57,657 nt of DNA, from IMG/VR virus record IMGVR_UViG_3300003332_000022, positions 1 through 57,657 of that record, one strand, 5' to 3'. The notes under the pieces are model-generated. The model did not search any database. It was not told the DNA's origin and saw only the letters and a list, made by a program, of their open reading frames with translations. The translations under genes were made by a program, and so were the position numbers. Numbering within the stretch: position 1 is the first letter of the stretch; every line of letters begins with the position of its first letter. Of this stretch, positions 1 through 46,134 are shown in pieces. This stretch comes from a virus.

Positions 1-973
1 TCGAGGTTTTAGCTACCAACATAAATTCTCTAATAAATAATATAGTATCTTTTTTTGATACCTTTTTATTGATTAGAGACAAGGCTGTTGATCTAATTTG
101 ATCGTGGAAGTTTTCAGCAGACATAATCTTTCTAATAGAAGCAGATATATCAAAATCTTTGCTTATGCTTCCATTATTCAAATTTACAAGATTCCCTTTA
201 TTTTCGTCACCTTTAGTAGTAATTGATTCTATGTCTGAAGGTTCCCAGTCAAGCAAGCTATTTCCCCTGTCTACATATCCTATAAATTCATTAGGATCTA
301 TAGGATCTATCCCACTTTCGATCACCCTTTTAGCGGTGTATACAGGTTGAACCGCTCTGTATATAGAGTAATCTACCAGGTTTTCACTGTTAGCTTTATT
401 CCAGGACTGAGCCCAGGACATCAGACTAACATTAGAGATAGGATTCTTTGGAGTAAAAAATAAATGGGCTTTTAGCTTTTTTGAGGTTAAGCCGAAAGAA
501 GCTGAAAATTGATATGTATAATCTGCTTGTGAAAACTCTATGGGCAGTTTATTTTCAATAAAACTTTCTATTGATTGTTTGCCGACTTTTACAAGATTAC
601 CCTCAGATTCTCGTTCATAGTTCATCATTAGAGGATAATCATCTATATCTATAGCAAACAAATCTACCATTCTATTTTCTATAGTTGGAGGCAATCCATC
701 TGGATGATCTTTCCTAGATCTTCTTAACATGTTAGACTTATCGATGTCTGGAAGAAACCCACCATGTATCATAAATACTTTTTTATTGGTTACAGTTTTT
801 AAAATTTCACTGAACTCTTTTAAATTTTCAACTTTTTGGGTTATTCCTCTAAAGTGCTTCATTAATGGATAGTCTTTTGATTTTACCCATTTCTCTGACT
901 CTTCATCATAATTAAAAGTCTTTGTTGGAAGATCTTTAATTAATGGCATTAAAAAGTTCACTTTAATCGACAT
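1..973 (-). CDS. Archaeo-eukaryotic-type primase, N-terminal half of primase-helicase (cut by window edge)
   Basis: The frame is open from ATG at 973 to the window edge, 324 codons with no stop. Residues around 110-120 read DLFAIDIDDYP, the hhhDxD metal-binding motif of AEP/PrimPol primases. A later KAHLFF segment fits the second, histidine-bearing motif, and DYSIYRAVQPVYTAKR fits the third-motif region where an Asp is followed by basic residues. AEP primases make RNA or DNA primers for replication. The segment ends in a helical stretch that normally links primase to helicase, and the helicase half lies at 55837-57657 at the opposite window end. Family call is from motifs; the join is inference. 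Confidence 0.8.
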   Translation of the reverse strand, partial: MSIKVNFLMPLIKDLPTKTFNYDEESEKWVKSKDYPLMKHFRGITQKVENLKEFSEILKTVTNKKVFMIHGGFLPDIDKSNMLRRSRKDHPDGLPPTIENRMVDLFAIDIDDYPLMMNYERESEGNLVKVGKQSIESFIENKLPIEFSQADYTYQFSASFGLTSKKLKAHLFFTPKNPISNVSLMSWAQSWNKANSENLVDYSIYRAVQPVYTAKRVIESGIDPIDPNEFIGYVDRGNSLLDWEPSDIESITTKGDENKGNLVNLNNGSISKDFDISASIRKIMSAENFHDQIRSTALSLINKKVSKKDTILFIREFMLVAKTS

Positions 974-991
974 CTTATTCCTGTTGTGAAA

Positions 992-1252
992 TTAATTAAA
1001 AAATCCTTCTTGATTGATCTTTTTCTTTTTACTAAAACCTTTGAACCTTTCTTCCCTTTTCTCCCCATTATCCCATTCAGTTGGATACCCTGTTACCTCT
1101 GTATTGCCATCTATAGAAAGTAATTTTATTGTTCCTCCATTCTTAAAATACTCATCTAAAAATGGCTTAATATCTTTGTGACTAGGATTAAACTTTGGCA
1201 ACTTTAGTTTTCTATCTGATACAGTAGATGGACTTGGATCAGGTCTTCTCAT
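992..1252 (-). CDS. Hypothetical protein, 86 aa
   Basis: Start overlaps the stop of the upstream glycosyltransferase gene as TAATG, so it is translationally coupled to it. The protein is hydrophilic and lysine-rich with no signal peptide or membrane segment. It contains a proline-rich N-terminus and a KKKK stretch near the C-terminus. I do not recognise a family. It is the last gene of the surface-modification cassette before the primase. Confidence 0.6.
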   Translation of the reverse strand: MRRPDPSPSTVSDRKLKLPKFNPSHKDIKPFLDEYFKNGGTIKLLSIDGNTEVTGYPTEWDNGEKREERFKGFSKKKKINQEGFFN

Positions 1253-1839
1253 TATAGCCTATGCTCCTTTTCGCCAAGGTGGCCTATTTGCTTAGACAGT
1301 TTTAAATCACAATAAACTTCATATCCGAATGTTCTTATATCTGCGCAAAAAGATAAATCTTCACCCCAGGTAGATTCTCCATCTTCGCTATAATCTATAT
1401 AAAAATAAGGCAAAGATAATTTATCAAATACTTCCATGTTTATTAAAGTAAATGCCATACCGATTCCTTCCACTTCTGTAACATTTCCAGCTATAGCATC
1501 CATTCTTGCCCCAACTATATTCTTTTCAATAACTGGGCCAGTCCCATCTTTCTTAGCGGCATTACATCCGATTATATCTTTGTCGTGATCAAGTAATCTT
1601 ATTAAAGCATCAGGTGGAAACCTCATATCTGAATCTATAAATAAGATATGGGTAAACCCTTTTTCCAAAGCATACTTAATACAATTATCTCTGGACAAAG
1701 GGAGCAAAGCCCCTTGAACATTAACATAACCTAATTGATATCTGGTACAAGTTGTTGCCACTAACTGAACTAAATCAGTAACGACATTAGCCCAGATATG
1801 GGTAGTAGAGGGTATAGCTATCAAAATTTTTTTGTTCAT
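1252..1839 (-). CDS. Glycosyltransferase, GT-A fold (GT2-like)
   Basis: 195 aa. The N-terminus KKILIAIPST opens a Rossmann-like beta strand; FIDSDMRFPPDAL holds the DxD metal/nucleotide-sugar motif; WGEDLSFCADIRTFGYEV is the acceptor/catalytic ED region common in phage GT-A enzymes. It would transfer a sugar from a nucleotide donor to a glycan or protein. The start overlaps the upstream sulfotransferase stop by 4 nt. It sits in a compact cassette with two sulfotransferases and an APS-kinase-like protein, so its acceptor may later be sulfated (inference). Donor and acceptor cannot be read from sequence. Confidence 0.82.
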   Translation of the reverse strand: MNKKILIAIPSTTHIWANVVTDLVQLVATTCTRYQLGYVNVQGALLPLSRDNCIKYALEKGFTHILFIDSDMRFPPDALIRLLDHDKDIIGCNAAKKDGTGPVIEKNIVGARMDAIAGNVTEVEGIGMAFTLINMEVFDKLSLPYFYIDYSEDGESTWGEDLSFCADIRTFGYEVYCDLKLSKQIGHLGEKEHRL

Positions 1840-2339
1840 GTTAATCCTTGAGAAGTTAAAAAATTAAGAATCCGCTTATTATATTCTTTTGCCAAAAATA
1901 TTCCTTCCCTTATTGACATATTATTCCTTTTAAATAAGGACTCGGCAACCTGTAATGGCTCCCTAAAGTTACAAATATAATGAGGATTGATTAAATAAGG
2001 AAGGTATAAATCTATTGTTAAGACTGTTCTTGGATCTTTCCAACCCCAGAGAATGCCTCTATCATTCTTGTATTCAACAAGATTCTTAATTTCTTGCTTA
2101 AGTTCCTCCCCAACAGAAAGTATTCTTGATGGATGAGGAGGATTATACCAAGTTCCACCTGCCTCTTTTAAGATCTTTTCATTCATATAATAGAAATCAA
2201 GATCTTCCCAGTTACCATTAGGTTGGTCACTAACAGGTCTATATCCAGATCCCATATCTATTATATGAGACAAAGCACCAGCTGTCAAACTAGTAGCGGA
2301 TCTGTGCATCCCCAATACTACAAATGTTTTAATCTTCAT
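1836..2339 (-). CDS. Sulfotransferase family protein
   Basis: I chose the ATG at 2339 (167 aa) because residues 9-16, GMHRSATS, are then the usual N-terminal PAPS 5'-phosphosulfate loop; a longer frame to 2450 would overlap the kinase gene by 120 nt. WGWKDPRT and FREPLQVAESL match the 3'-phosphate-binding region (R and S). The family moves sulfate from PAPS to hydroxyl or amine groups. The loop has Ala where RSGTS is usual, a mild deviation. The gene overlaps the APS-kinase-like gene by 11 nt, so donor synthesis and use appear co-translated. Confidence 0.82.
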   Translation of the reverse strand: MKIKTFVVLGMHRSATSLTAGALSHIIDMGSGYRPVSDQPNGNWEDLDFYYMNEKILKEAGGTWYNPPHPSRILSVGEELKQEIKNLVEYKNDRGILWGWKDPRTVLTIDLYLPYLINPHYICNFREPLQVAESLFKRNNMSIREGIFLAKEYNKRILNFLTSQGLT

Positions 2340-2658
2340 ATTTTGTACCAGGCCAAAGTTTGCCAAAGGGCATTTGGATTTCAATGCAACCCTTTTCAAA
2401 TCCTTTCTGCAAAAAACCTCTATAGCTTTTATTGGGGCTAACACAGGCAATTACTACATTAAAACCTTGTTTATCTAATAAAATTGCTAAGTCTACCAAT
2501 CTCTTTTGATTTCTTTGTCTACCATCAACTTTAAAAGTATCTGGGAATATTTTCCTAATATCATCCCCATCTAAAACAATCCCATTAATCTGTTTGGCTA
2601 TTTTATAAGCCAGGGTTGTTTTACCTGAATTTGGCTTACCTGTTATCCAATAAATCAA
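2329..2658 (-). CDS. APS-kinase-like P-loop kinase (CysC-type), short form
   Basis: 109 aa. ITGKPNSGKTTLA at residues 5-17 is a Walker A loop; VLDGDDIRK is the LDGDxxR signature of adenylylsulfate kinases; the Arg/Asn-rich helix and VVIACVSP follow the family order. APS kinase phosphorylates adenosine 5'-phosphosulfate to PAPS, the donor used by the neighbouring sulfotransferases. It is shorter than usual (cellular CysC is roughly 175-200 aa) and lacks the C-terminal lid region, so it could be minimal, truncated, or act on another small substrate. It overlaps both neighbours by a few bases. Confidence 0.72.
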   Translation of the reverse strand: MIYWITGKPNSGKTTLAYKIAKQINGIVLDGDDIRKIFPDTFKVDGRQRNQKRLVDLAILLDKQGFNVVIACVSPNKSYRGFLQKGFEKGCIEIQMPFGKLWPGTKYED

Positions 2659-3200
2659 TCTAACCTCCTTATATTATTATACTTTAGCTGATTAGTAAAC
2701 CACTTTTTATTATCTTCTTGGTTATGCGCAGGGTGATCAAACTTCCCATCTATAAAATAATAATCATTTTTAGATTCATAAAAGTCAAAACCAGCAACAT
2801 ATATCTCTGTAAATCTTTCTTGACACAGACAAGCCATAATCATTAACATACCCATATTCGGTGCAGAATTAAATTTGCCAAAAATAGTTTTTATATTTGA
2901 ACTAGGCAATACATAATCTGGATCTCTTTTAAATTTATTTATAGCTAATAGAATAAAATTTGGATGTACCAGCCATAACTCTTTAGATTTTGAGGCATAC
3001 TTAGCCACGTCATACATAGGTTCACACCTATCGTGCTTAAGCCTATGAGTAGGATTAGGCCAGCTAGACCAGGCATCGCAGAAAGGAAATTCAGTAGTAG
3101 AAATAAAACCATTCATTCTAATCACAAAATAATCTGTGAAATTTTTGCCTTTTGTTTCTTCAATAAAACACAGAGCATTACCACAAACTAGTGCTTTCAA
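2655..3200 (-). CDS. Sialyltransferase-like glycosyltransferase (GT42/GT29-like)
   Basis: The likely start is TTG at 3200: GGAGG lies 5 nt upstream and the protein then begins KALVCGNA, like the GNGPS opening of GT42 enzymes; ATG 3212 and GTG 3233 are in-frame alternatives. A central DYFVIRMNGF fits the xxVxRxN strand of sialyltransferases. The C-terminal stretch SAPNMGMLMIMACLC and EIYVAGFDFY fits the TSG...A...G...I.L.G.DFY motif, with a later H before the end. The family transfers sialic acid or a related sugar from a CMP donor. The start lies inside the small upstream ORF at 3178-3345. Confidence 0.62.
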   Translation of the reverse strand: MKALVCGNALCFIEETKGKNFTDYFVIRMNGFISTTEFPFCDAWSSWPNPTHRLKHDRCEPMYDVAKYASKSKELWLVHPNFILLAINKFKRDPDYVLPSSNIKTIFGKFNSAPNMGMLMIMACLCQERFTEIYVAGFDFYESKNDYYFIDGKFDHPAHNQEDNKKWFTNQLKYNNIRRLD

Positions 3201-3345
3201 TTTTACCTCCATTTGTTTCCCATTGGAATCCACAGTCTTTACAAATATAGAATGAGAAGTCCATTACTGTACTTCTATAAAATTTTTTATGAAAGCATGT
3301 TTCTTTTTTTGATTCATTTCGTTCTTTTTTCTCAGCTTTAGTCAT
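3178..3345 (-). CDS. Small putative zinc-binding protein, 55 aa
   Basis: ATG at 3345 overlaps the stop of the upstream sulfotransferase by 8 nt, the tight packing seen throughout this cassette. The product has CFH near residue 17 and ICKDCGF near residue 34, a plausible four-ligand zinc site, and a basic N-terminus. Its 3' end overlaps the start of the glycosyltransferase gene by about 23 nt. Codon use is like its neighbours. Function unknown; a similar C..H/C..C layout occurs in the small protein at 55592-55783. Confidence 0.5.
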   Translation of the reverse strand: MTKAEKKERNESKKETCFHKKFYRSTVMDFSFYICKDCGFQWETNGGKIESTSLW

Positions 3346-3922
3346 AATAACCAAACTCCTTCATAATGTTATAAACTTCCCTTGGAAACTCTTTATGTGG
3401 CTTAGTCTTCCAAGCGCTACACCTAACAGGCTTATAGTTATGTCCAGTTATATCGAGAACAGGATCTAATTCAAGATAACCTGATATCCAATTTATATAC
3501 CCTGGAACATTTTCAACTATATCTTCATACCAGATAAAAAGGCAATCTAGTTCTTTATTAATAAGCCCACCCATCAACTCTATATACATTTCAACAGGAT
3601 CTTCCTTAATTAACTTCCAATATTTTGACCTAAAAATGTCTCTAGGATCTCGAAGGCAAAAAATTATCTTATCAGTATTATTCCTCAATGTACCCCAGCG
3701 CTCTAAGTATGGTCGAGTAGTTTTATCGCCCGTATATATAGGATCTTTTTTAACCATCGATAAAGCGTTGTTTCTAGCTTCCCATTTACGTCTTTTATTA
3801 GGATTTCGACTAATGAAACTCCGCTTCTCATAAGTGATACTTATTCTAGGATCAATATTTAATAGGTCAGTTAGGGCAGTTGTTCCACTTCGACTGAATC
3901 CAGTTATTGCTAGTTTCTTCAT
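3338..3922 (-). CDS. Sulfotransferase family protein
   Basis: ATG at 3922 forms TAATG with the upstream stop and gives MKKLAITGFSRSGTT, placing the PAPS 5'-phosphosulfate loop (SRSGTT) at residues 9-14. FCLRDPRDIFRS near residue 90-100 is the 3'-phosphate-binding motif (RDPRD...S). About 194 aa, shorter than typical cytosolic sulfotransferases (about 250-300 aa) but normal for phage forms. It is the second sulfotransferase in the cassette, so at least two acceptor sites are possible (inference). Confidence 0.85.
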   Translation of the reverse strand: MKKLAITGFSRSGTTALTDLLNIDPRISITYEKRSFISRNPNKRRKWEARNNALSMVKKDPIYTGDKTTRPYLERWGTLRNNTDKIIFCLRDPRDIFRSKYWKLIKEDPVEMYIELMGGLINKELDCLFIWYEDIVENVPGYINWISGYLELDPVLDITGHNYKPVRCSAWKTKPHKEFPREVYNIMKEFGYYD

Positions 3923-4500
3923 TATACCCACCCATTTCTTTTGCGTTTATAATATAAGGATCTATCTGAATTAAATACTTCTTTTGAATACACTCTTTTG
4001 TAATCTTTGTCTGGTTCAACATTGGTATCTAATAGCGGATGGTTGTGCAGGACTATGGATGATGGAGAGTAATAGAATTTATTTTGTTCTATGGCTCTAT
4101 CCATTAATTCTCTATCGCAGAAGCAGTGTTGATAGCCTGTATGGAAAAATTCTCCACCTAAAGAATCTAGCATATCTCTTGAAGCAAGCCAGTGAGTTGG
4201 AAGAGTCCTTCCAGTCTTATCATTTAGGCCAACTAAGCCTGATTCATTTGTAAAATAATACACATCTATAAAAGCATTTAATAGGAAGTCTTTTTGAGGA
4301 TCTGTATCATCTCCTATAAAACAAATATAGTCACCTTTGGATTTATCAACTAATTTCTTTAACATCTTAGGACAACCAATTCTATCTTTATCCTCTTCAG
4401 CTAATATTTCAATATCTGCTATTCCTGAATTTTTCCTTATTTTATTAATCAAGCTAAGCATATTTTGAGGTCTGATAAAAGGTATACAGATTGATATCAT
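3922..4500 (-). CDS. Glycosyltransferase family 2-like protein
   Basis: 192 aa. MISICIPFIRP opens the nucleotide-binding Rossmann half, and YICFIGDDTDPQ near residue 60 supplies the DDxD-type metal motif of GT2 enzymes. A later DRELMDRAIEQ and HNHPLLD fit the acceptor side. It probably adds a sugar to a phage or host surface component, cytoplasmic. Its stop overlaps the sulfotransferase start and its own start overlaps the upstream stop by 4 nt, so the whole block is one transcript. Confidence 0.78.
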   Translation of the reverse strand: MISICIPFIRPQNMLSLINKIRKNSGIADIEILAEEDKDRIGCPKMLKKLVDKSKGDYICFIGDDTDPQKDFLLNAFIDVYYFTNESGLVGLNDKTGRTLPTHWLASRDMLDSLGGEFFHTGYQHCFCDRELMDRAIEQNKFYYSPSSIVLHNHPLLDTNVEPDKDYKRVYSKEVFNSDRSLYYKRKRNGWV

Positions 4501-4799
4501 TTATTTTCCTTTAGTTGGTCTTGTGCAAAATCCCAGACCTCACAGAAAGCATTATATTTTATATATCCAAAATCGAGATCGCCATTCGCGTGCAGTTTCC
4601 AAGCTTCTTCTCTTGTTATTGGTTTAGAATTAATCTCTTTAAGCCAGCCTATTGGGATTGATGTAAATTTTATTTCTGCAAAATTATTTACAGTAATTGA
4701 CTCATTTGCCGATATTTCATCTTTAAAACCAAAAAGCATATTTGCTAAAAGCGCATCTTCTTTGTTTATCATTTCTGGAATAATTATCTTATATTTCAT
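4497..4799 (-). CDS. Hypothetical protein, about 100 aa
   Basis: The ATG at 4799 is preferred over 4820 because GGGAGG lies 7 nt upstream and it forms an ATGA overlap with the preceding stop. The protein begins with an alternating hydrophobic strand (MKYKIIIPEM), has a DLDFGY segment and a Trp-containing helix near the end. I see no catalytic motif, signal or membrane segment. Position suggests an accessory gene upstream of the modification cassette. Confidence 0.62.
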   Translation of the reverse strand: MKYKIIIPEMINKEDALLANMLFGFKDEISANESITVNNFAEIKFTSIPIGWLKEINSKPITREEAWKLHANGDLDFGYIKYNAFCEVWDFAQDQLKENK

Positions 4800-5050
4800 C
4801 TCAAATCCTCCCTTATCCAATCAGCAAAAGATTTATTATCAGGGCACCAAGCCTTGATATATTTTTCTTCTTTATATTCTTTAATAGTTTTAATCATCTT
4901 AGTAACACAATCTGGACAGACAGCGTTTGATCCAAATAAGAACCCACCGCTAATATTAGAATTGGTATAGTCCTTATTACATAAATCGCAAAGAACAGAG
5001 TCTCCACAATCTATGGTGATTACCTCAAAGTCTTTAAATGGATCTGTCAT
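4796..5050 (-). CDS. Small protein with two CxxC motifs, 84 aa
   Basis: AAGGAG lies upstream of ATG 5050. The sequence has CDLC around residue 21 and CPDC around residue 45, a treble-clef or zinc-ribbon-like spacing, followed by a Lys-rich helix and a C-terminal Trp-containing helix. Such small zinc proteins are frequent in phage early regions and may bind nucleic acid or host proteins, but no specific role can be assigned. Overlaps both neighbours by 4 nt. Confidence 0.65.
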   Translation of the reverse strand: MTDPFKDFEVITIDCGDSVLCDLCNKDYTNSNISGGFLFGSNAVCPDCVTKMIKTIKEYKEEKYIKAWCPDNKSFADWIREDLR

Positions 5051-5352
5051 GTATTCTCCTTTTCTAATATTAATTTCAAATCATCAGCTTCAAGGCTTTC
5101 AAAAGTCCCAATAACATCTTTTAGCGCAGCTTCAAGCTTAGCAATCCTTAAATCTTTTGGATCAATTTCCTCTTCAACTTCTAAATAATAATCCGCTTTT
5201 GCTTGATACCATCCATCTTTATAATTAGAGAAGTATGATTGAAAGTTAAAAGTATTTTCTTTGAATGGATGACAATCTTTAGGATTAAGATCATTACGGA
5301 AATCTTCCCTGCCCATCTTTCTTAGTTTGGATGGGGTGTAGTTATTAGCCAT
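5047..5352 (-). CDS. Hypothetical protein with C-terminal coiled coil, 101 aa
   Basis: Starts in a 1-nt overlap with the upstream stop. The N-terminal half is basic and aromatic (FQSYFSNYKDGWYQAK); the C-terminal third, beginning near DPKDLRIAKLEAAL, has heptad-like Leu/Ala spacing typical of the short coiled coils that end many phage accessory proteins. No enzymatic motif. Part of a string of overlapping small minus-strand genes. Confidence 0.6.
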   Translation of the reverse strand: MANNYTPSKLRKMGREDFRNDLNPKDCHPFKENTFNFQSYFSNYKDGWYQAKADYYLEVEEEIDPKDLRIAKLEAALKDVIGTFESLEADDLKLILEKENT

Positions 5353-5582
5353 TATAAATCCTTTTTGGTTTTAACATCAGAAACTAAACTAAGCGGTTTA
5401 ATCATCTTTGGATCATATCCTTTTTCTTTTAGAATATTTTTCCCAGTTTGCTCGTACATCCTTAATCCACCATTCCCTTTTTGGTATCCTATCTCTGCTC
5501 CATCTATATATACTGTTACAGAATGTTCAGAATTACCTGAATAATCAGAGAACCAACGTTTTCCGTGAAATACTATTTGCAT
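5352..5582 (-). CDS. Hypothetical protein, 76 aa
   Basis: A small protein with beta-rich N-terminus (IVFHGKRWFSDY, HSVTVYIDG) and a glycine-containing turn GYQKGNGG, then a Lys-rich end. I do not recognise a family; there are no cysteines and no membrane segment. It sits 14 nt after the preceding gene and overlaps the next start by 1 nt, so it belongs to the same transcript. Confidence 0.55.
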   Translation of the reverse strand: MQIVFHGKRWFSDYSGNSEHSVTVYIDGAEIGYQKGNGGLRMYEQTGKNILKEKGYDPKMIKPLSLVSDVKTKKDL

Positions 5583-5596
5583 TTATATCCTTTTGT

Positions 5597-5803
5597 TTAT
5601 CTTCCTAGTTCCTGTAGCTCTCGTGATATTCCCCAGAGTTGATCAGCCTTTTCTTGAAATGAAGATTCATCATAAGCTAATGCCATATTTTTAAATAATC
5701 TTTCTTTGTTTTTAAACTTCATTGAAATAATTTCTGCTTTCAGAGCCTCGATTTGTGCAATTAAAGAATAAATTATAGCGAGTGTAGCTGTATCAAATGT
5801 CAT
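5597..5803 (-). CDS. Hypothetical helical protein, 68 aa
   Basis: The product is almost entirely predicted helix: an apolar N-terminal helix (ATLAIIYSLIAQIEALKAEI) then a charged amphipathic helix ending LQELGR. It could be a small coiled-coil or membrane-peripheral protein. GAGGAG lies just upstream of ATG 5803, which overlaps the stop of the preceding small gene as TAATG. Confidence 0.5.
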   Translation of the reverse strand: MTFDTATLAIIYSLIAQIEALKAEIISMKFKNKERLFKNMALAYDESSFQEKADQLWGISRELQELGR

Positions 5804-5931
5804 TACATCTCCTCAAAAAACATTCTAATAAATAGACATGTAGAATAAATCTCGCTTCTTGAATAGAAGTTCCATTGGTCGCAATATGGAGGATTGTATC
5901 TACATATAGGTTTGAATTCATTTATCGCCAC
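5803..5931 (-). CDS. Small Cys-containing protein, 42 aa (GTG start)
   Basis: Read from GTG 5931 (GAGG just upstream), the product contains FKPICRYNPPYCDQW and a C-terminal hydrophobic FIRMFFEEM. Its TAA overlaps the next gene's ATG as TAATG, the coupling used elsewhere here. An alternative frame from ATG 5921 (45 aa) overlaps the DUF1566 stop as ATGA but runs past the next start. I prefer the GTG frame from composition and coupling; moderate to low certainty. Confidence 0.4.
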   Translation of the reverse strand: MAINEFKPICRYNPPYCDQWNFYSRSEIYSTCLFIRMFFEEM

Positions 5932-6331
5932 CTCGAACGCAACGGACATACATGTTACCTGTCTTATAGTTATGGTTCACAACGCCGTTGTAGAAGTACA
6001 CATACCATGCGTAGCTAGTATAGCTAGCGTAGGTAGTAGACGACCAATAGTACGAAGAAACACATTTAAGACTATTAGTTTTACAACAATGATCATATTT
6101 TGAATGATCAACTAAGGTCAACAATTCTGTTATTGTTGGCAATCTCCATCCCTCACCTAAAGAGGTGGCGTATTCTATAGCATCATTCCAGGTCATCTTT
6201 GGTTTTGTTACTACTTCCCACTCTAAATTAGTTTCAAGATCAACCCATGTTTTCTTTTTAATTGTCCCAGATAATCTTCGTTGTAACTCGTCATACATTT
6301 CTTTAGTTGAATAATCTTTAAGTGTTGTCAT
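5918..6331 (-). CDS. DUF1566 (Lcl C-terminal-like) lectin-fold protein
   Basis: 137 aa. TWNDAIEYATSLGEGWRLPTITEL is the conserved core of DUF1566, a C-type-lectin/formylglycine-enzyme-like fold, and YVRCVRG is its usual C-terminus. Members serve as ligand-binding proteins, and some are targets of diversity-generating retroelements. The last 45 residues are dominated by Tyr, Ser, Asn and Thr, and use C-ending codons (TAC, AGC, AAC, GGC) unlike the AT-rich remainder of the gene. No signal peptide; it probably acts as a virion or host-interaction protein (inference). No reverse transcriptase is present in the window. Confidence 0.8.
   Translation of the reverse strand: MTTLKDYSTKEMYDELQRRLSGTIKKKTWVDLETNLEWEVVTKPKMTWNDAIEYATSLGEGWRLPTITELLTLVDHSKYDHCCKTNSLKCVSSYYWSSTTYASYTSYAWYVYFYNGVVNHNYKTGNMYVRCVRGGDK
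5935..6057 (-). other. Candidate variable region of the DUF1566 gene
   Basis: This 3' segment of the DUF1566 gene has a sharp rise in C/G at codon third positions: TAC four times, AGC twice, AAC three times, plus TTC and GGC. It encodes surface-type residues at the positions that vary in DUF1566 variable regions (AAY-derived NNC codons). The shift begins near 6057, where upstream codons return to AT-rich forms. It resembles a diversified cassette, but I found no template repeat. Confidence 0.45.
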
Positions 6332-6699
6332 AATTTTAAATTCTCTGGTTTAATATAATCATTTTCAATAAGCCAGATCAATGCTTCACATCTCGCTTGA
6401 GCTTCTGTGAATTTATAATTAAATGTTTTTAATTCTTTTAAATGGTTACCTTTTGTTAGTTGCCAGTAACCTACAGAGTTGATCCAAACTTTGTAACCTT
6501 TTAATAATACCCCGAGTTCTGCAACATCGGGAGCAGGATAAAATGCTGGAAATTCTTTATGGCATCCATTATAAACTTTATTTAAATACCACTCCTTATG
6601 TGTATTCTCTGTCCAATGGTACTCAGTTTTTAAAACAATATCTAATTCAACAAGTTTTTTAGCTTGCTCAAGTGTACAAACTTTATCTTCTTGTTTCAT
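6328..6699 (-). CDS. Hypothetical protein, about 123 aa
   Basis: ATG 6699 is chosen over the longer frame from 6729 because GGAG lies 5 nt upstream. The protein has a Trp/Tyr-rich centre (TEYHWTENTHKEWYLNK) and a C-terminal helix (EAQARCEALIWLIENDY). Similar short ligand-like proteins are common in phage early regions, but I cannot name the family. The 3' end overlaps the DUF1566 start by 4 nt. Confidence 0.6.
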   Translation of the reverse strand: MKQEDKVCTLEQAKKLVELDIVLKTEYHWTENTHKEWYLNKVYNGCHKEFPAFYPAPDVAELGVLLKGYKVWINSVGYWQLTKGNHLKELKTFNYKFTEAQARCEALIWLIENDYIKPENLKL

Positions 6700-6700
6700 G

Positions 6701-7015
6701 TTATCTCCAACTATCTCTAATAAAAGCAATATATTTTAAAGTTTCCGCTTTAGTAGGAATAGCCCTTAACCTATCATAGGCAGAATCAGGATTATAACAA
6801 GCATCGTTGTTAATAGGACATTGCTCACAGGAAAGTTCATTATCTACCATCCACTCACAAGCGGGAAAATCTATCTCTGAAGTATTAAAGACATCTTTTA
6901 ATAATACATCGAAGTCCTCTTGAAAGTACATCATATTAAATAAACCGTCTGATCTTAAAGATACATTATCATATAGCTTTTGCCAAAATTCGATATGTGC
7001 GGTTTGGTAGTTCAC
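6701..7015 (-). CDS. Hypothetical Cys-rich protein, 104 aa (GTG start)
   Basis: GTG 7015 is preceded by a perfect GGAGG with 5-nt spacing. The centre carries a cluster CEWMVDNELSCEQCPINNDAC, four cysteines that may bind metal or form an Fe-S or zinc site. The rest is helical with Phe/Tyr-rich N-terminus. No known function. It is the first gene after the promoter at 7045-7073, so it heads this accessory transcript. Confidence 0.62.
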   Translation of the reverse strand: MNYQTAHIEFWQKLYDNVSLRSDGLFNMMYFQEDFDVLLKDVFNTSEIDFPACEWMVDNELSCEQCPINNDACYNPDSAYDRLRAIPTKAETLKYIAFIRDSWR

Positions 7016-7044
7016 TTTTACCTCCTTTAATATTATATAATAAG

Positions 7045-7073
7045 ACTATATAGGTTTAAAAGTAATCCGTAAA
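7045..7073 (-). promoter_or_regulatory. Promoter (TTTACG-N17-TATAGT)
   Basis: On the minus strand the -35 is at 7073-7068 and the -10 TATAGT at 7050-7045 with exactly 17 bp between. The spacer ends AAACCTA, as in the promoter at 53286-53314. Start of transcription would be near 7038, about 23 nt before the GTG of the gene at 7015. Confidence 0.6.
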
Positions 7074-7090
7074 GGATAAAATAGATGTAT

Positions 7091-7213
7091 TTAATCTTTA
7101 GCCATATAACTGCTTACTTCAATATTATCAAACCTATCCAGCTCTTTTTTACAAGATCTTGTTATCCAGCAGATAGAGAAAATAAGGAATGCTATTATAA
7201 TTAGTTGTTTCAT
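7091..7213 (-). CDS. Single-span membrane peptide, 40 aa
   Basis: From ATG 7213 (AAGGAT upstream) the product begins MKQLIIIAFLIFSICWI, a strong hydrophobic segment, followed by RSCKKELDRFD, a charged cytoplasmic or periplasmic tail. The Cys at 21 could be a lipobox-like residue but lacks the L-[AS]-[GA]-C pattern. Small membrane peptides of this sort can be host-takeover or lysis-timing factors; no family recognised. Confidence 0.5.
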   Translation of the reverse strand: MKQLIIIAFLIFSICWITRSCKKELDRFDNIEVSSYMAKD

Positions 7214-7221
7214 TTTATCCT

Positions 7222-7461
7222 TTATATAGGGGTTAATTTGTATTTTTCAGAATTGTTTAGTAAATACTTATCCCCTTTATATAGCATTTTTATATTGCCA
7301 TTGTCTGGTATTTTAACATAGTCTGATGCTTGTAAAAAATTCAAAGCCTCTATATTTTCACTACCAAATTTGTTTACAAAATTATTAAAATTTGCCGAAT
7401 TAGGATCATCTTTTATAAACTCCAATATATCTAAATCTATTTGGTTTAATTTTTTGGCCAT
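7222..7461 (-). CDS. Putative winged-helix-like protein, about 79 aa
   Basis: ATG 7461 (MAKKLNQIDLDILEFIK) follows the upstream stop closely; the longer frame to 7527 would overlap the upstream gene by about 60 nt. The N-terminal helix, the central FNNFVNKFG helix and the final beta-like IKMLYKGDKYLL resemble a winged-helix DNA-binding fold, the last element being a wing. This could be a transcriptional regulator, which would fit its place near the control region, but the assignment is weak. Confidence 0.5.
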   Translation of the reverse strand: MAKKLNQIDLDILEFIKDDPNSANFNNFVNKFGSENIEALNFLQASDYVKIPDNGNIKMLYKGDKYLLNNSEKYKLTPI

Positions 7462-7468
7462 TTTTGTC

Positions 7469-8008
7469 TCATTCAAATCTAGGTTTTTTTGGTACATATC
7501 CTTCTTTGCGATATTCAGAATTTCCACTCAAAGCTGCCGCCCTGTTAGTTGCTACTAAATTAATCCATGCTTTGTATCTACGTTCCGCTTCTATTTTTGC
7601 CTTCTCGAATAATTCATACACGCCAATTTCTATCTCTATATTTTGACTAGCGGCAACTTTTAATAATAATGCATCCTCTTTACTTGGGATATATAATATA
7701 TGACTATTAACTCTGTAACATCCTTTTTCTGGTTCGAAAATTATATCAAAGAATGTAGTATCCTTTATGGAAGCTGAAGCTGAAATAACTTCATCTTCTT
7801 TATCATTAGGATATTGTTTGGCCACCACAATCCAAGTTAGCCCATTAAAGTAGCACTTCTTTAATTGAAAAGGTTTAGGTTTTATAGTATAGGTTACCAA
7901 TTTAGGCTTAACCTCTTCAAATGAAGGTTGTTTGTTTATCTCTTCTGGGCTTTCTCCTTCTTTGAATTCTTCTTCATTAAAATCATCATTAAATTCTTTG
8001 TTTACCAT
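7469..8008 (-). CDS. Hypothetical protein, 179 aa
   Basis: Strong AAGGAG site upstream of ATG 8008. The N-terminus is very acidic (FNDDFNEEEFKEGESPEE), followed by a beta-rich middle (LVTYTIKPKPFQLKKCYF, TWIVVAKQ) and a long Ala/Glu/Arg helix ending in a basic tail. It is the first gene downstream of the promoter at 8062-8090, so probably early expressed. No family recognised; the acidic leader could mimic DNA or bind basic host proteins (speculative). Confidence 0.6.
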   Translation of the reverse strand: MVNKEFNDDFNEEEFKEGESPEEINKQPSFEEVKPKLVTYTIKPKPFQLKKCYFNGLTWIVVAKQYPNDKEDEVISASASIKDTTFFDIIFEPEKGCYRVNSHILYIPSKEDALLLKVAASQNIEIEIGVYELFEKAKIEAERRYKAWINLVATNRAAALSGNSEYRKEGYVPKKPRFE

Positions 8009-8061
8009 TTTATCTCCTTGTTTAATTAGGTTTGATTTATATTAATTTACTCGTTATATTT

Positions 8062-8090
8062 ATAATAATCTAAACCTATTGAAAAGTAAA
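8062..8090 (-). promoter_or_regulatory. Promoter (TTTACT-N17-TATTAT)
   Basis: -35 TTTACT at 8090-8085 followed by TTTCAA, 17-bp spacer, -10 TATTAT at 8067-8062. The extended -35 TTTACTTTTCAA is identical to that of the opposing promoter at 8382. Start of transcription near 8055, upstream of the gene at 8008. Confidence 0.65.
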
Positions 8091-8140
8091 GGTTAATTTT
8101 TAGTTATTTTCTTTGTACTCATAGGACCAGTATTGGATAG

Positions 8141-8163
8141 GTAAAGTTAAAAATAAACTTTAC
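8141..8163. promoter_or_regulatory. Dyad symmetry in divergent control region
   Basis: GTAAAGTT and AACTTTAC form perfect 8-bp arms around a 7-nt spacer. The site lies in the 460-nt gap between the divergent promoters at 8062-8090 (minus) and 8382-8410 (plus). It could be an operator or a weak hairpin. The rest of the gap (8009-8470) is AT-rich and holds no convincing ORF. Confidence 0.35.
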
Positions 8164-8381
8164 ACTGAGTTTGAAACATATTGTAGGTTCGAGGGGTTTT
8201 TTACTTTAAATTACTTAGCTATAGTATTTTTTTTGTCGTCTTTTAGATTATATTAAGGTTATTCTATAAAACGATATATAATTCAGTATAGCTAAAGAAG
8301 TGCTAGGAAATCGGGTTTAAACCTACAAATCAATACAACTACATTGTAAAGATTAATGATATTAGGTGCTTATATAAGGAC

Positions 8382-8410
8382 TTTACTTTTCAAAGGATTT
8401 TTATTATAAT
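8382..8410 (+). promoter_or_regulatory. Promoter (TTTACT-N17-TATAAT)
   Basis: TTTACT at 8382-8387, 17-bp spacer starting TTTCAA, consensus TATAAT at 8405-8410. Transcription would start near 8417, giving a leader of about 54 nt before the small terminase ATG at 8471. It is the only plus-strand promoter seen before the late operon promoter at 12213. Confidence 0.7.
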
Positions 8411-8425
8411 AGAGACATTATTTGA

Positions 8426-8449
8426 CCACCCGAACTTGAACTTTTTACT
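8426..8449 (+). repeat. Dispersed motif CCACCCG-N9-TTTTTACT, copy 1
   Basis: CCACCCG at 8426-8432, nine bases, then TTTTTACT at 8442-8449, inside the small terminase leader. The same spaced motif occurs at about 9093-9116 and 9155-9178; weaker forms (CCCG-N9-ATTTTA) lie at 10727 and 10777. The fixed 9-bp gap across otherwise different sequence suggests a protein-binding site. Confidence 0.5.
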
Positions 8450-8470
8450 AACCATAACCAATAAACTAAA

Positions 8471-8989
8471 ATGACTGCTATACCTGTTGTAGAGGAAAAA
8501 CCTATCAATCCAAGTAAACCATATACTGTGATGCCAAATGGAGGGATAAGATTCTATACAACCAAGTATCGTACTGAAATGGATCAGATTGCTTATGATG
8601 CTGTCGCTCAAGAAGATGGAACATTAACCCATGCTTGCTATGCTTTGGGAATTGCTAAATCAACCTTGCTAAAATGGATGGGAAGATATCCTAGTTTCTT
8701 TGAAGCAATTTCAAGAGGGAAAGAAGTTGGGGAATATTTGTTTAGACAAAAAGTTAAGGAAGTGGCTTTCCAACCAACTAGTGGAGTCAATAATACTCTT
8801 ATTAAGATGATTGCTCGGAATGTCCATGGTATTGATATTGAAAGTGAAGTTAGCATCAACATTAACGTTGGTAATAAGAAGGAATTGGCAAATGAAGATT
8901 GTAGGCTTTATCAGGAGGAAATGGAGAATATAATTGAAGGTGATTATGAGGAAGTTGCTCAGATTGAGCATAATGATGAAGACCAATGA
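8471..8989 (+). CDS. terS: Terminase small subunit
   Basis: 172 aa. Residues about 40-90 form a helix-turn-helix region (GTLTHACYALGIAKSTLLKWMGRYPSF, written here in parts: HACYALGIAKSTLLKW) typical of small terminases that recognise the packaging site. A later helix and an acidic tail (EYEEVAQIEHNDEDQ-like) match oligomerisation and large-subunit contact regions. It is separated by about 5 kb from the large subunit, unusual since the two genes are usually adjacent. No Shine-Dalgarno precedes the ATG. Tandem palindromes follow immediately and may be its target. Confidence 0.75.
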   Translation: MTAIPVVEEKPINPSKPYTVMPNGGIRFYTTKYRTEMDQIAYDAVAQEDGTLTHACYALGIAKSTLLKWMGRYPSFFEAISRGKEVGEYLFRQKVKEVAFQPTSGVNNTLIKMIARNVHGIDIESEVSININVGNKKELANEDCRLYQEEMENIIEGDYEEVAQIEHNDEDQ

Positions 8990-13765: not shown

Positions 13766-13966
13766 ATGGACTATATGATAGATTTAGGCATTGCTTATTA
13801 TCCTCAAGTTGGGATAGGATTGGCTATTTTAGCGGTAATTTATGGTGGGGCTAAAGCCATTGCTAAAATAACACCTACTAAAAAGGATGATAAGATTGTT
13901 GAAAAGCTCGAAAAAGCCGGCATTGGTAAATTTCTTTCAAGATTTAATCCTTTAAATAAAAAGTAA
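13766..13966 (+). CDS. Small single-span membrane protein, holin candidate
   Basis: ATG 13766 is preferred to GTG 13760 because AAGG sits 5 nt upstream. 66 aa with one membrane segment (VGIGLAILAVIYGGAKAIAK) and a basic, helical C-terminus (KKDDKIVEKLEKAGIGKF). Size, topology and place beside the endolysin suit a class III holin or a lysis accessory, but no family signature is visible. Stop overlaps the terminase start by 1 nt. Confidence 0.5.
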   Translation: MDYMIDLGIAYYPQVGIGLAILAVIYGGAKAIAKITPTKKDDKIVEKLEKAGIGKFLSRFNPLNKK

Positions 13967-16608
13967 TGGCAGGATATCCTAACTTCAAAAAAATTCTTCA
14001 CAAACGTGCTCAAAAGATCATTAAGATTAAGAGTGATCCTAGACTTATGCGTGGTGCTTGGCACTATTATAAGGATAGGCCTGTTGAATATATTTGTGAT
14101 TGGGGTGTTACTTATGATCCTAGAAATGCGGGTACAGATATTCCTACCTTAATGCCATTTGTTCCATTTAAACGTCAAAAAGAGTTTATAAGATTTCTGT
14201 ATGCGTGTCTGCTAGATCAAGAAAATGGTGGATGTGAGAAATGTCGTGACGTTGGAGCGACTTGGATAGCGGCAAATTTCAGTGATTGGCTATGGAGATT
14301 TCACCCAGGGTCTGCTATAGGTTGGGGATCTCGTAAAGAGAGTTTAGTTGATAAAATGGGAGATCCTGATTCTATATTCGAGAAGATTAGAATGGTTCAG
14401 GAGAATATCCCCTCATTTTTACAGCCAAAAGGATGGAATTCAAAGGTTCATGCTACCTATATGAAGATAATTAATCCTGAAAATGGGTCTACGATAACCG
14501 GAGAAGCGGGTGACAACATTGGTAGAGGCGGGAGGAAAACCATATATTTTAAAGACGAAGCCCAACCATTAACCTCTAAGGTATTAACTCCTACTGGATT
14601 TAAATTAATGGGTGATATAGAGGTTGGCTCTATTATATCTCATCCATATAATGGTACCTCTAAAGTTACTCAGATAAAAGAGTTTGAATCAGTGGAAACA
14701 TTTAGATTTAAATTCAGCGATGGAATGATTGCCGAGTGTAGTCCAAATCATTTATGGGAAGTAACAAAAACTTGGGGCAAAAAGAAAAAGTTTATAACTT
14801 CAGCAAAAGCATTATATGAAGATTATGTCTATAATAGCCCAGGTGGCCAAAAACAATATAAGTATAGGATTCCTATCTGCGATGTTATAGAATTTGACTC
14901 AAAAGAAGAATTGCCTCTTGATCCTTATTTAGTTGGAGCTTTAATAGGTGATGGCTCTGTTCATAAAGTGCCCAATGCTACTCCTGGTTTTACTACTGCT
15001 GATGAATTTATGGTTCAAGAATTTGAGAGGCTGTTGCCAGAAGGTGTAGAGATTATGAATAGAGGTGGTTATGCTTATAGCATTTGTGATGTTATTGGAG
15101 TCAAATCTAATAGGTTTAATAAAAGCAGAGCCAGAAAAGTAGTTGGGGATTCAGGGATAGGTGGATGCTTATCCTATCAAAAGTTTATTCCAGATGCATA
15201 TAAATATTCGACTCCTGAAAATAGGTTTGATTTATTACAAGGGTTGATGGATACTGATGGATGTGGTTCTGGAGTTGCTAGTTTTCATACATCTTCTGAG
15301 AAGTTAGCAAATGATGTATTGTTTCTAGTTCAGTCTTTAGGTGGGACTGCTACTTATAATATAAAGCCAAATGAGATGCATAGAGATATGTATGTATTAC
15401 ATCTAGCTTTACCAAAGTGGCCTGCTCCTTTTAGACTTGAAAGAAAGATTGCATCCCTTAACCCAAGAAAACATCCAGTGGGCAGAGCTATTATTTCAAT
15501 TGAGCTGTTAGAAGCTCAGCCTATGAGGTGTATTTCTGTAGATTCTAAAGATGGATTATACTTAACTGACAACTTTGTAGTAACCCATAATTCAGCCCAT
15601 TATGAAAGACCTGAAAAAATCGAAGCTGCTCTCGGTGATAATACTAACATACAAATTGACATCTCTTCAGTTAATGGGCCTACTACTGTATTTCAAAGAA
15701 GAATTGACGCAGGAGAGGTATGGGAGCCTGATTCTACTCCAAGAAAAGGAGCGACCAGAGTTTTTATCTTTGACTGGTCAGACCATCCATTAAAAACCCA
15801 GGAATGGTATGATACAAGAAGAGCAAGAGCAGTTGAAGAAGGGTTGCTTCATATATTTGCTCAAGAGGTTGATCGAGATGCCACTGCTGCTGTTGAAGGA
15901 ATTTTAATTCCTGGTAATTGGGTTACTGCTATTATTGATGCTCATATTAAACTGAATATTCCTATTACTGGAAAGAAGATTGCCGCTTTTGATGTAGCTG
16001 ACGGTGGAGAAGATAAACAGGGTTTATCTTTAAGGCATGGTATTCTACAGTATATTTCTGATAAGTGGGATGCTCCAGATGTAGGTGTAGCTACTCAAAA
16101 AGCATTATTCAGGTGTAAAAGAGAAAGGGTTACATCCCTACAATATGATAATATTGGTGTTGGATCTGGGGTTAAGTCTGAGATTAATAGGCTGGAAAGA
16201 GAAAAATTATTGCCTAAAAGTCTTGATGTAGTTGGGTGGAACGCTTCTGGAAAGGTATTAAAACCTAATGCCAGAGTGATAAGAGGTGATAAACAATCAC
16301 CTAGAAACAAAGATTTTTATGCTAATTTAAAGGCTCAAGGGTGGTGGCAATTGCGATTGCGTTGCGAAAAGACATTTAAAATGATTAATCAGGTAGCTGA
16401 ATATCCTGTTGATGAGCTTATTAGTCTTGATTCTAATATGAAAGGGTTACAGGAACTGAGAAAAGAACTGTCTCAGCCAACTTATTCTATAAATGGTGCT
16501 GGCAAGTTAGTTATTGATAAGAAGCCTGATGGGATGAAGTCTCCTAATAGAGCGGATGCGACTATGATGAATTACTGGCCTAAACACAAAAGACAAGTCT
16601 TCATTTAA
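13966..16608 (+). CDS. terL: Terminase large subunit with intein
   Basis: 880 aa precursor; about 537 aa after splicing. ATPase: variant Walker A at residues 91-100 (EKCRDVGATW) and Walker B/catalytic acid at 193-199 (IYFKDEA). Residues 200-542 are an intein splitting DEA from SAHYERPEKI. RuvC-like nuclease: Asp in AAFDVADGG (about 676), Asp in SLQYDNIGVG, and the final Asp pair in NRADATMM near 866. The enzyme cuts concatemeric DNA and pumps it into proheads with the small subunit at 8471. TAATG overlap with the preceding gene. Confidence 0.92.
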   Translation: MAGYPNFKKILHKRAQKIIKIKSDPRLMRGAWHYYKDRPVEYICDWGVTYDPRNAGTDIPTLMPFVPFKRQKEFIRFLYACLLDQENGGCEKCRDVGATWIAANFSDWLWRFHPGSAIGWGSRKESLVDKMGDPDSIFEKIRMVQENIPSFLQPKGWNSKVHATYMKIINPENGSTITGEAGDNIGRGGRKTIYFKDEAQPLTSKVLTPTGFKLMGDIEVGSIISHPYNGTSKVTQIKEFESVETFRFKFSDGMIAECSPNHLWEVTKTWGKKKKFITSAKALYEDYVYNSPGGQKQYKYRIPICDVIEFDSKEELPLDPYLVGALIGDGSVHKVPNATPGFTTADEFMVQEFERLLPEGVEIMNRGGYAYSICDVIGVKSNRFNKSRARKVVGDSGIGGCLSYQKFIPDAYKYSTPENRFDLLQGLMDTDGCGSGVASFHTSSEKLANDVLFLVQSLGGTATYNIKPNEMHRDMYVLHLALPKWPAPFRLERKIASLNPRKHPVGRAIISIELLEAQPMRCISVDSKDGLYLTDNFVVTHNSAHYERPEKIEAALGDNTNIQIDISSVNGPTTVFQRRIDAGEVWEPDSTPRKGATRVFIFDWSDHPLKTQEWYDTRRARAVEEGLLHIFAQEVDRDATAAVEGILIPGNWVTAIIDAHIKLNIPITGKKIAAFDVADGGEDKQGLSLRHGILQYISDKWDAPDVGVATQKALFRCKRERVTSLQYDNIGVGSGVKSEINRLEREKLLPKSLDVVGWNASGKVLKPNARVIRGDKQSPRNKDFYANLKAQGWWQLRLRCEKTFKMINQVAEYPVDELISLDSNMKGLQELRKELSQPTYSINGAGKLVIDKKPDGMKSPNRADATMMNYWPKHKRQVFI
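14563..15591 (+). mobile_element. Intein with LAGLIDADG homing endonuclease (343 aa) in terminase
   Basis: Starts QPLTSKVLTPTG (intein block A, but Gln instead of Cys/Ser at position 1) and ends NFVVTHN followed by Ser as +1 extein residue (blocks F/G). Block B histidine is in SPNHLWEV. Two endonuclease motifs are visible: LVGALIGDG (about precursor residues 322-330) and LLQGLMDTDG (about 423-432). It is inserted inside the ATPase Walker B site, a typical choice since loss must be precise. Gln1 is a recognised but rare nonstandard intein N-terminus. Confidence 0.9.
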
Positions 16609-45375: not shown

Positions 45376-46134
45376 CTACATAGTCATCCCTTTCTCATTA
45401 GCTTTTGGAGCTGCTTGATGTGAACTATTTTCCCACTCATATTTGATCCGATCTCTTATGGTACTAGGATCAAAACAGTATTGCTGGATGGGGCATTTTG
45501 TATAAAGTGGAAATGCACATGATCCATACTTAACACAATAAACATTTAATAATGGTTCTGCCCAAGGGTGAAGTTCTAATACTTGAGCTACCATCATTTT
45601 AAAGACTTTTTGATATTCCCCTTCTGCTCTTTTACAGAGCCTCAGCTCTGCCATATGGCCTAATTCTCTAAGATGAAATTTTGACATAATCTGAGTGTGA
45701 ATACCAGTTCCTAATATTCCTCTAGCATTTTGAACATCTTCCCCTTTGTCGATCATTTCTCCGTATTTCTTTAGGCTGAAGTCAAAAGCCTCTTGATACT
45801 CTGGCATATCAGAACTAACTAAATAACCAAAATTTCTGGCATCTACTACTCTCATAGCCTGCTGTTGATAAGCAGCTTCTCTGGTTCTAATTAATTGATG
45901 AGTAAAAGCTCTTGAAACATTAGTTATGTGAAAAGTATAGTGAACAAATTCAAAACTTGACTTTATAGTATTTAACATATATTCGATATGATCTCTTTTC
46001 TCATCCATAGACATCTTTTTGACTTGCTCAAAGGTAATTCCTGGAGTTAATCTACTGCTTTTTGAAAATACTAATAAATCTACCGCATCTTGAGTATGCT
46101 GTATTAATTCAACTTTTGGCTCTAACTTTTCCAT
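45376..46134 (-). CDS. ThyX-like flavin-dependent thymidylate synthase, variant motif
   Basis: 252 aa. THQLIRTREAAYQQQAMR corresponds to the ThyX signature RHRxxSxxxxSxR, but His is replaced by Thr and the key Ser by Ala (RTR-x7-A). The upstream FEFVHYTFHITNVSRAF segment and downstream HMAELRLCKRAEGEYQKVF match ThyX helices and flavin contacts. ThyX makes dTMP from dUMP; the altered site may mean a different reaction (such as another C5 modification) or relaxed mechanism. Two genes on lies a flavoprotein. Confidence 0.75.
   Translation of the reverse strand: MEKLEPKVELIQHTQDAVDLLVFSKSSRLTPGITFEQVKKMSMDEKRDHIEYMLNTIKSSFEFVHYTFHITNVSRAFTHQLIRTREAAYQQQAMRVVDARNFGYLVSSDMPEYQEAFDFSLKKYGEMIDKGEDVQNARGILGTGIHTQIMSKFHLRELGHMAELRLCKRAEGEYQKVFKMMVAQVLELHPWAEPLLNVYCVKYGSCAFPLYTKCPIQQYCFDPSTIRDRIKYEWENSSHQAAPKANEKGMTM

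Follow-up and report, generated by a model that had tools for sequence, protein, structure and literature searches.

According to excerpts of PMC12363180 that cite Freeman et al. 2023, capsid and tail proteins are glycosylated by the mycobacteriophages Che8, Corndog and Myrna. There are also reports of phage sulfotransferases, with unclear function (PMC10580990; PMC8290583). In Mycobacterium tuberculosis, adenosine 5'-phosphosulfate (APS) is bound by Asp480, Arg483, Phe492, Arg497 and Ser524 of the kinase CysC, and Arg559, Phe576 and the catalytic Lys562 lie in the lid of this enzyme (PMC4373884). In the open-access literature that we searched, we found neither the pairing of a phage APS kinase with a sulfotransferase nor a lid-less clade of APS kinases described. 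Here, we analysed the entire IMG/VR virus record IMGVR_UViG_3300003332_000022 (57,657 bases; hereafter the window), which carries a block with a lid-less APS-kinase-like gene, two sulfotransferase genes (ST1 and ST2) and sugar-transferase-like genes. We interpret the block as a phage sulfation module, in which a minimal APS kinase would produce 3'-phosphoadenosine 5'-phosphosulfate (PAPS) for the linked sulfotransferases, which in turn would sulfate a component of the virion or host surface, either a glycan or a protein. We assign this reading a probability of about 0.58. More generally, the kinase-sulfotransferase pair is found in many unrelated phages, frequently among capsid genes, and it is therefore probable that some phages sulfate sugars or proteins on their virions or on the host surface. 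The genes that carry the argument are:

1836..2339, minus strand: sulfotransferase ST1, 167 aa from ATG 2339, assigned by apparent PAPS-site motifs and a match to a bacterial sulfotransferase-like protein
2329..2658, minus strand: lid-less APS-kinase-like protein, 109 aa, with a TTG start behind AAGGAGG
3338..3922, minus strand: sulfotransferase ST2, 194 aa from ATG 3922 (GTG 3931 also possible), assigned by PF13469 and PF00685

The kinase matched PF01583 over residues 2-90 with 48.5 bits (cut-off 21.1; E = 1.3e-12), and the APS-kinase-like gene of the original prediction was thereby confirmed. Its motifs are the P-loop GKPNSGKT, LDGDDIR, F42, R47, SP at positions 74-75 and the tail FGKLWPGTKYE, so that the catalytic core of CysC, consisting of the P-loop and LDGDxxR, is present. 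By alignment and motif, the APS-binding residues Asp480, Arg483, Phe492, Arg497 and Ser524 of CysC correspond to D32, R35, F42, R47 and S74 of the window kinase. Neither the window kinase nor any other member of the short clade described below has the lid that bears Arg559, Lys562 and Phe576, and the score of 47.7 bits stayed under the TIGR00455 equivalog cut-off for CysC (138.7 bits). Because the lid is absent, we do not class the protein as CysC; its sequence and predicted structure suggest that it most likely works like one.

A structure predicted from the single sequence was useless (pLDDT 43.6), and we used a model based on an alignment of nine relatives instead (pLDDT 86.5). The original prediction had proposed a fold comparison with CysC, and in both structure and profile matches APS kinases ranked first. 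The top matches of the model in the Protein Data Bank (PDB) were 7yq1, 8a8h and 7yq0, all APS kinases, with TM scores on the query of 0.71-0.80; the solved APS kinases matched by the model include complexes with APS. Gluconate kinases likewise matched the model. The profile of the nine relatives retrieved 24 APS kinases from the PDB (2.6e-23 to 1.5e-12) before the first other kinase (1.4e-6).

A single-protein scan of viral contigs with the kinase returned no relatives, and alignment queries were needed to find them. Some of these relatives are full-length and CysC-like, whereas others are of shorter kinds. The kind found in the window is about 110-140 aa long and has a GGxLWxGTxYExP tail in place of the CysC lid, the window protein being some 10 residues shorter than its clade relatives. 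In a maximum-likelihood tree this short clade was monophyletic (support 99/98), and its sister was a second short kind that includes a protein of phage DLP_6. A clade profile built without the window protein scored the window kinase at 2.2e-30 (Z=1000). All members of the short clade that we found were viral; a scan of one genome per bacterial or archaeal species gave at least 15 relatives of the kinase, and among the matches listed none belonged to the short clade. We rejected the possibility of a truncated or frameshifted CysC, as the relatives end alike and the stop codon is followed by the ST1 frame rather than by lost kinase sequence. The loss of the C-terminus throughout the clade implies that it is a trait of the clade and not a defect of the window copy. 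The original prediction was right that the usual C-terminal part is missing.

The second line of evidence is the association of these kinases with sulfotransferases. The 11-nt overlap noted earlier between the kinase and a sulfotransferase gene was recovered, provided that ST1 starts at ATG 2339. In nine of the 13 short-clade loci (L036, L037, L040, L041, L043, L054, L116, L118 and the window), a sulfotransferase was adjacent or one gene off, with overlaps of 4 nt in L040 and 8 nt in L116. At least three sulfotransferase subfamilies were involved; the profile of the L040/L054/L116 type scored the window ST1 at just 7.5 bits. The different subfamilies of the partners imply that the kinase has had more than one type of sulfotransferase as its partner.

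Our first test of linkage used a home-made sulfotransferase profile, which was seed-biased, and the test was redone with Pfam. In this Pfam-only scan, 20 of the 80 viral APS-kinase records had a PF13469 match within 1 kb, whereas random placement gave an expectation of 3.3 and a maximum of 12 in 20,000 trials. As a control, 80 loci were picked by a common flanking glycosyltransferase; one had a sulfotransferase (L213), and there it lies beside an APS-kinase-like gene. Therefore, the kinase-sulfotransferase set is a recurrent, little-described phage module and not a one-off, and the earlier view of the assembled set as unusual is not supported. The recurrence in other phages supports a role of the kinase in PAPS supply. 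It also bears on the idea that unrelated accessory genes have come together by chance. The closest relative phage that has the region (L031) lacks the block: its flanking transferase genes overlap by 4 nt with nothing between them, as expected of accessory cargo, which implies either a gain of the block on one side or its loss on the other. However, the pairing is far commoner than under random placement and shows repeated short overlaps, and we consider a chance grouping extremely improbable.

Of the two sulfotransferases in the original prediction, ST2 is the firmer. It exceeded the cut-offs of both PF13469 (36.4 of 27 bits; 8.7e-9) and PF00685 (3.8e-6), with a value of 1.1e-7 in the own-genome search, and it has the PAPS-site motifs GFSRSGTT and CLRDPRDIFRS. 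ST1 had a weaker Pfam match (see below), but GMHRSATS and REPLQVAESL are apparent PAPS-site motifs, and it matches a 414-aa sulfotransferase-like protein of a Pseudomonas chromosomal cluster (tblastn 5e-10, 30% identity, 99% of ST1), which itself scores just 20.4 of 27 bits. Single-protein scans of viral contigs found no close viral relatives of ST1 or ST2.

Several observations weigh against the sulfation module. The catalytic lid lysine is gone from the short clade, without a conserved lysine as substitute, and in M. tuberculosis CysC one change in the lid abolishes activity (PMC4373884). ST1 scored below the PF13469 cut-off (14.1 of 27 bits; E = 0.057) and is short, with 167 aa against a model of 216 positions. 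The lineage of L038, L039 and L117, as well as L044, carries the short kinase, and no sulfotransferase was found nearby; in L039, a separate CTP_transf_like gene of the nicotinamide mononucleotide adenylyltransferase (NMNAT) type (L039:5267-5749) ends exactly at the start of the short kinase gene. Moreover, linkage within 1 kb occurred in 6 of 12 short-clade records and in 14 of 68 other viral APS kinases (Fisher p = 0.064); within 2 kb the counts were 7/12 and 14/68 (p = 0.011). The short clade is not clearly more linked than the rest, and the pairing is thus a general trait of viral APS kinases. Finally, the window block lies off the capsid locus, so that a virion target would be assigned by analogy.

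An APS-kinase-like domain at the N-terminus is joined to an NMNAT-type nucleotidyltransferase domain at the C-terminus in the proteins encoded at L004:6989-7720, L042:5983-6903, L048:5974-6753, L057:5986-6795 and L213:6736-7524. The second domain was identified as CTP_transf_like in L048 and L213, and by eye in L004, L042 and L057. The order of the domains is that of kinase and sulfurylase in animal PAPS synthases, and in L048 and L213 the fusion gene shares 4 nt with a sulfotransferase gene. These phage fusions could be either an analogue of PAPS synthase or an NAD-related enzyme.

An alternative reading of the short kinase is a change of substrate: instead of APS, it would phosphorylate a sugar, a nucleoside or nicotinamide riboside in a pathway to a cofactor or glycan donor, and it would neighbour sulfotransferases because both belong to a glycan-modification locus. 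The loss of the lid with its catalytic lysine points in this direction, as do the kinases of the sister clade fused to an NMNAT-like domain (DLP_6, L114), the other viral fusions in L042, L048 and L057, the separate gene adjoining the kinase in L039, and the gluconate kinases among the matches of the model. Yet the APS-site residues are kept, profile and fold both place APS kinases first, and the linkage is to sulfotransferases, which even the fusion gene overlaps in L048 and L213. We regard a changed substrate as unlikely.

The missing lid is also compatible with active sulfotransferases that use PAPS of the host, next to a kinase that is catalytically dead or a mere carrier. Many hosts make PAPS for sulfate assimilation, and a phage related to that of the window by its terminase (G003) has a sulfotransferase and no APS kinase in its 65-kb record. 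However, the members of a diverged clade have all kept the P-loop, LDGD and APS-site residues, as selection for catalysis would suggest, and we judge a dead kinase to be quite improbable.

The setting of the block in other phages bears on the acceptor. In L116 it is flanked by the gene of the major head protein on one side and by neck and tail genes on the other, and holds a second sulfotransferase-like open reading frame (ORF; below the PF03567 cut-off with 17.1 bits) as well as ORFs recognized by eye as glycosyltransferase-like. L118 has three sulfotransferases beside neck genes, and the block of L040 has a similar setting at head and neck genes of the virion; judged by their ORFs, L041 and L054 resemble these. 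In G003, the sulfotransferase stands among glycosyltransferase-like genes in an apparent capsid locus. One of the three L118 sulfotransferases (L118:1325-2530) is a fusion with a Methyltransf_24 domain.

In the window, the block is part of a leftward operon on the replication side, outside the capsid locus; it occupies the minus strand, and downstream of it a primase-like ORF continues past the left end. This company of replication genes would suit phage DNA or a small molecule as acceptor instead of a surface glycan or protein, and some phages carry DNA-modifying glycosyltransferases. Nevertheless, no base-modification enzymes were noticed beside the block, although no systematic search was made, relatives with copies near capsid genes suggest targets on the virion or a surface, and PF13469 includes protein-tyrosine sulfotransferases and also covers glycan sulfotransferases. 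An acceptor of this kind is very unlikely in our view.

The sulfation module that we favour contains three steps that we infer, namely PAPS synthesis by the lid-less protein, sulfate transfer and the choice of acceptor. ATP sulfurylase of the host would supply APS, which the minimal phage kinase would phosphorylate to PAPS. PAPS would pass to ST1 and ST2; the overlap probably couples the translation of ST1 to that of the kinase. ST1 and ST2 would then sulfate a glycan or protein side chain made or carried beside the phage glycosyltransferase-like proteins, and this acceptor would most likely be part of the virion or of the host surface; the glycosylation of mycobacteriophage capsids and tails makes a virion acceptor plausible. 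The record has no recognizable ATP sulfurylase, PAPS-reductase-type or PAP-phosphatase-type gene (no matches to PF01747, PF01507 or PF00459), which implies that APS supply and removal of the by-product 3'-phosphoadenosine 5'-phosphate (PAP) would be left to the host. A further proposal, that phages evolved their own lid-less APS kinase of ~110-140 aa with a partner sulfotransferase, possibly with direct hand-over of PAPS, and have sulfated virions, is tentative and on balance doubtful.

The remaining genes of the block are:

1252..1839, minus strand: GT-A-like glycosyltransferase, 195 aa, with D69-S-D71, at the downstream flank of the cassette (phrog_1574, 1.2e-19)
2655..3203, minus strand: putative GT42/sialyltransferase-like protein, 182 aa, with TTG 3203 behind GGAGG
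3178..3345, minus strand: 55-aa ORF with a CxxC pair (CKDCGF), from translation
3922..4500, minus strand: glycosyltransferase-like protein, 192 aa, at the upstream flank of the cassette (PF00535, sub-threshold)

The two flanking genes had been described as GT2-like. Both have weak matches, and the downstream protein has the DSD motif, but neither reaches a Pfam cut-off: the upstream protein scored 13 bits against PF00535 (GT2; cut-off 23.3; E = 0.097), and the downstream protein 19 of 28.8 bits against PF03452 (Anp1; E = 0.0011). Their relatives in L031 are L031:13425-14105 (32%) and L031:14102-14689 (58% identical), respectively, and the family of the downstream protein is very common in phages. 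The sialyltransferase assignment of 2655..3203 is the least secure of the three. This protein had no Pfam hit at E 1, no PHROG hit and no relatives in the phages or viral contigs searched; its lone PDB match was a CMP-Neu5Ac lipooligosaccharide (LOS) alpha-2,3-sialyltransferase, sub-threshold at E = 0.17. A comparison with the proteins of L116, L118 and L032 that are MptE-like or have a similar position showed no kinship (hhalign probability 2%). The 55-aa ORF, which was absent from the original prediction, overlaps the last part of ST2 and the beginning of the sialyltransferase-like gene.

Leftwards, the order of the block is glycosyltransferase-like gene, ST2, 55-aa ORF, putative GT42-like gene, kinase, ST1 and GT-A-like gene. 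From 4500 down to 992, every gene is on the minus strand, with overlaps or short gaps between neighbours. No leftward terminator-like site was found in window positions 1-8700, which makes a single transcript plausible, in line with the original prediction. A perfect sigma-70-type promoter match (TTGACA-17-TATAAT, 12/12) lies on the minus strand at 2260-2288, inside ST1, and could be due to chance.

The source is a tailed phage, judged from ORFs alone, with a plus-strand series of terminase-, portal-, capsid-, tail-sheath- and baseplate-like genes. Minus-strand ORFs at 1-973 and 55837-57657 run off the two ends and look like two parts of one primase/helicase; hence, the record may be a nearly complete, circularly permuted genome that is a few bases short at the join. 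The terminase large subunit (13966-16608, 880 aa) has an intein-like insert (ending ...VVTHN|S), which is missing from its 545-aa relative in L031. The C-terminus of the protein encoded at 5918-6331 resembles, by eye, the DUF1566/C-type-lectin-like domains of diversity-generating retroelement targets. Furthermore, a ThyX-type thymidylate synthase is encoded at 45376-46134 (PF02511, 8.5e-31).

If the further proposal of virion sulfation holds, sulfated capsids of phages would form a new class among virion modifications, and a lid-less APS kinase of 110 residues would show how little of the enzyme suffices. The kinase-sulfotransferase pair beside capsid genes in several relatives makes PAPS synthesis and sulfation of the virion or host surface directly testable.

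Among known systems, phage capsid glycosylation in Che8, Corndog and Myrna resembles the proposed module in that phage glycosyltransferases decorate virion proteins, while sulfation is not described in the excerpts of PMC12363180. The record named 'Pseudomonas phage Y4' (L002, OQ572406.1, UNVERIFIED) was rejected as a phage with the same pair, as the stretch analysed looks like a bacterial chromosome with a surface-glycan cluster. In that cluster, a sulfotransferase, CysC and glycosyltransferases are neighbours, a combination of functions that recurs in the window; it differs in its chromosomal location, its full-length 196-aa CysC with lid and its genes on opposite strands. Compared with the PAPS-dependent sulfotransferases of PF13469 and PF00685, ST2 has the 5' and 3' PAPS-site motifs and ST1 appears to have them, with ST2 over the cut-offs and ST1 below and short. 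The window kinase is about 60-70 residues shorter than CysC (PF01583/TIGR00455; M. tuberculosis, Archaeoglobus fulgidus 7yq1), with a new short tail, no lid and a score under the equivalog cut-off, but it shares with CysC the P-loop kinase core with LDGDxxR, the aromatic residue and arginine of the APS site, the SP motif and the predicted fold.

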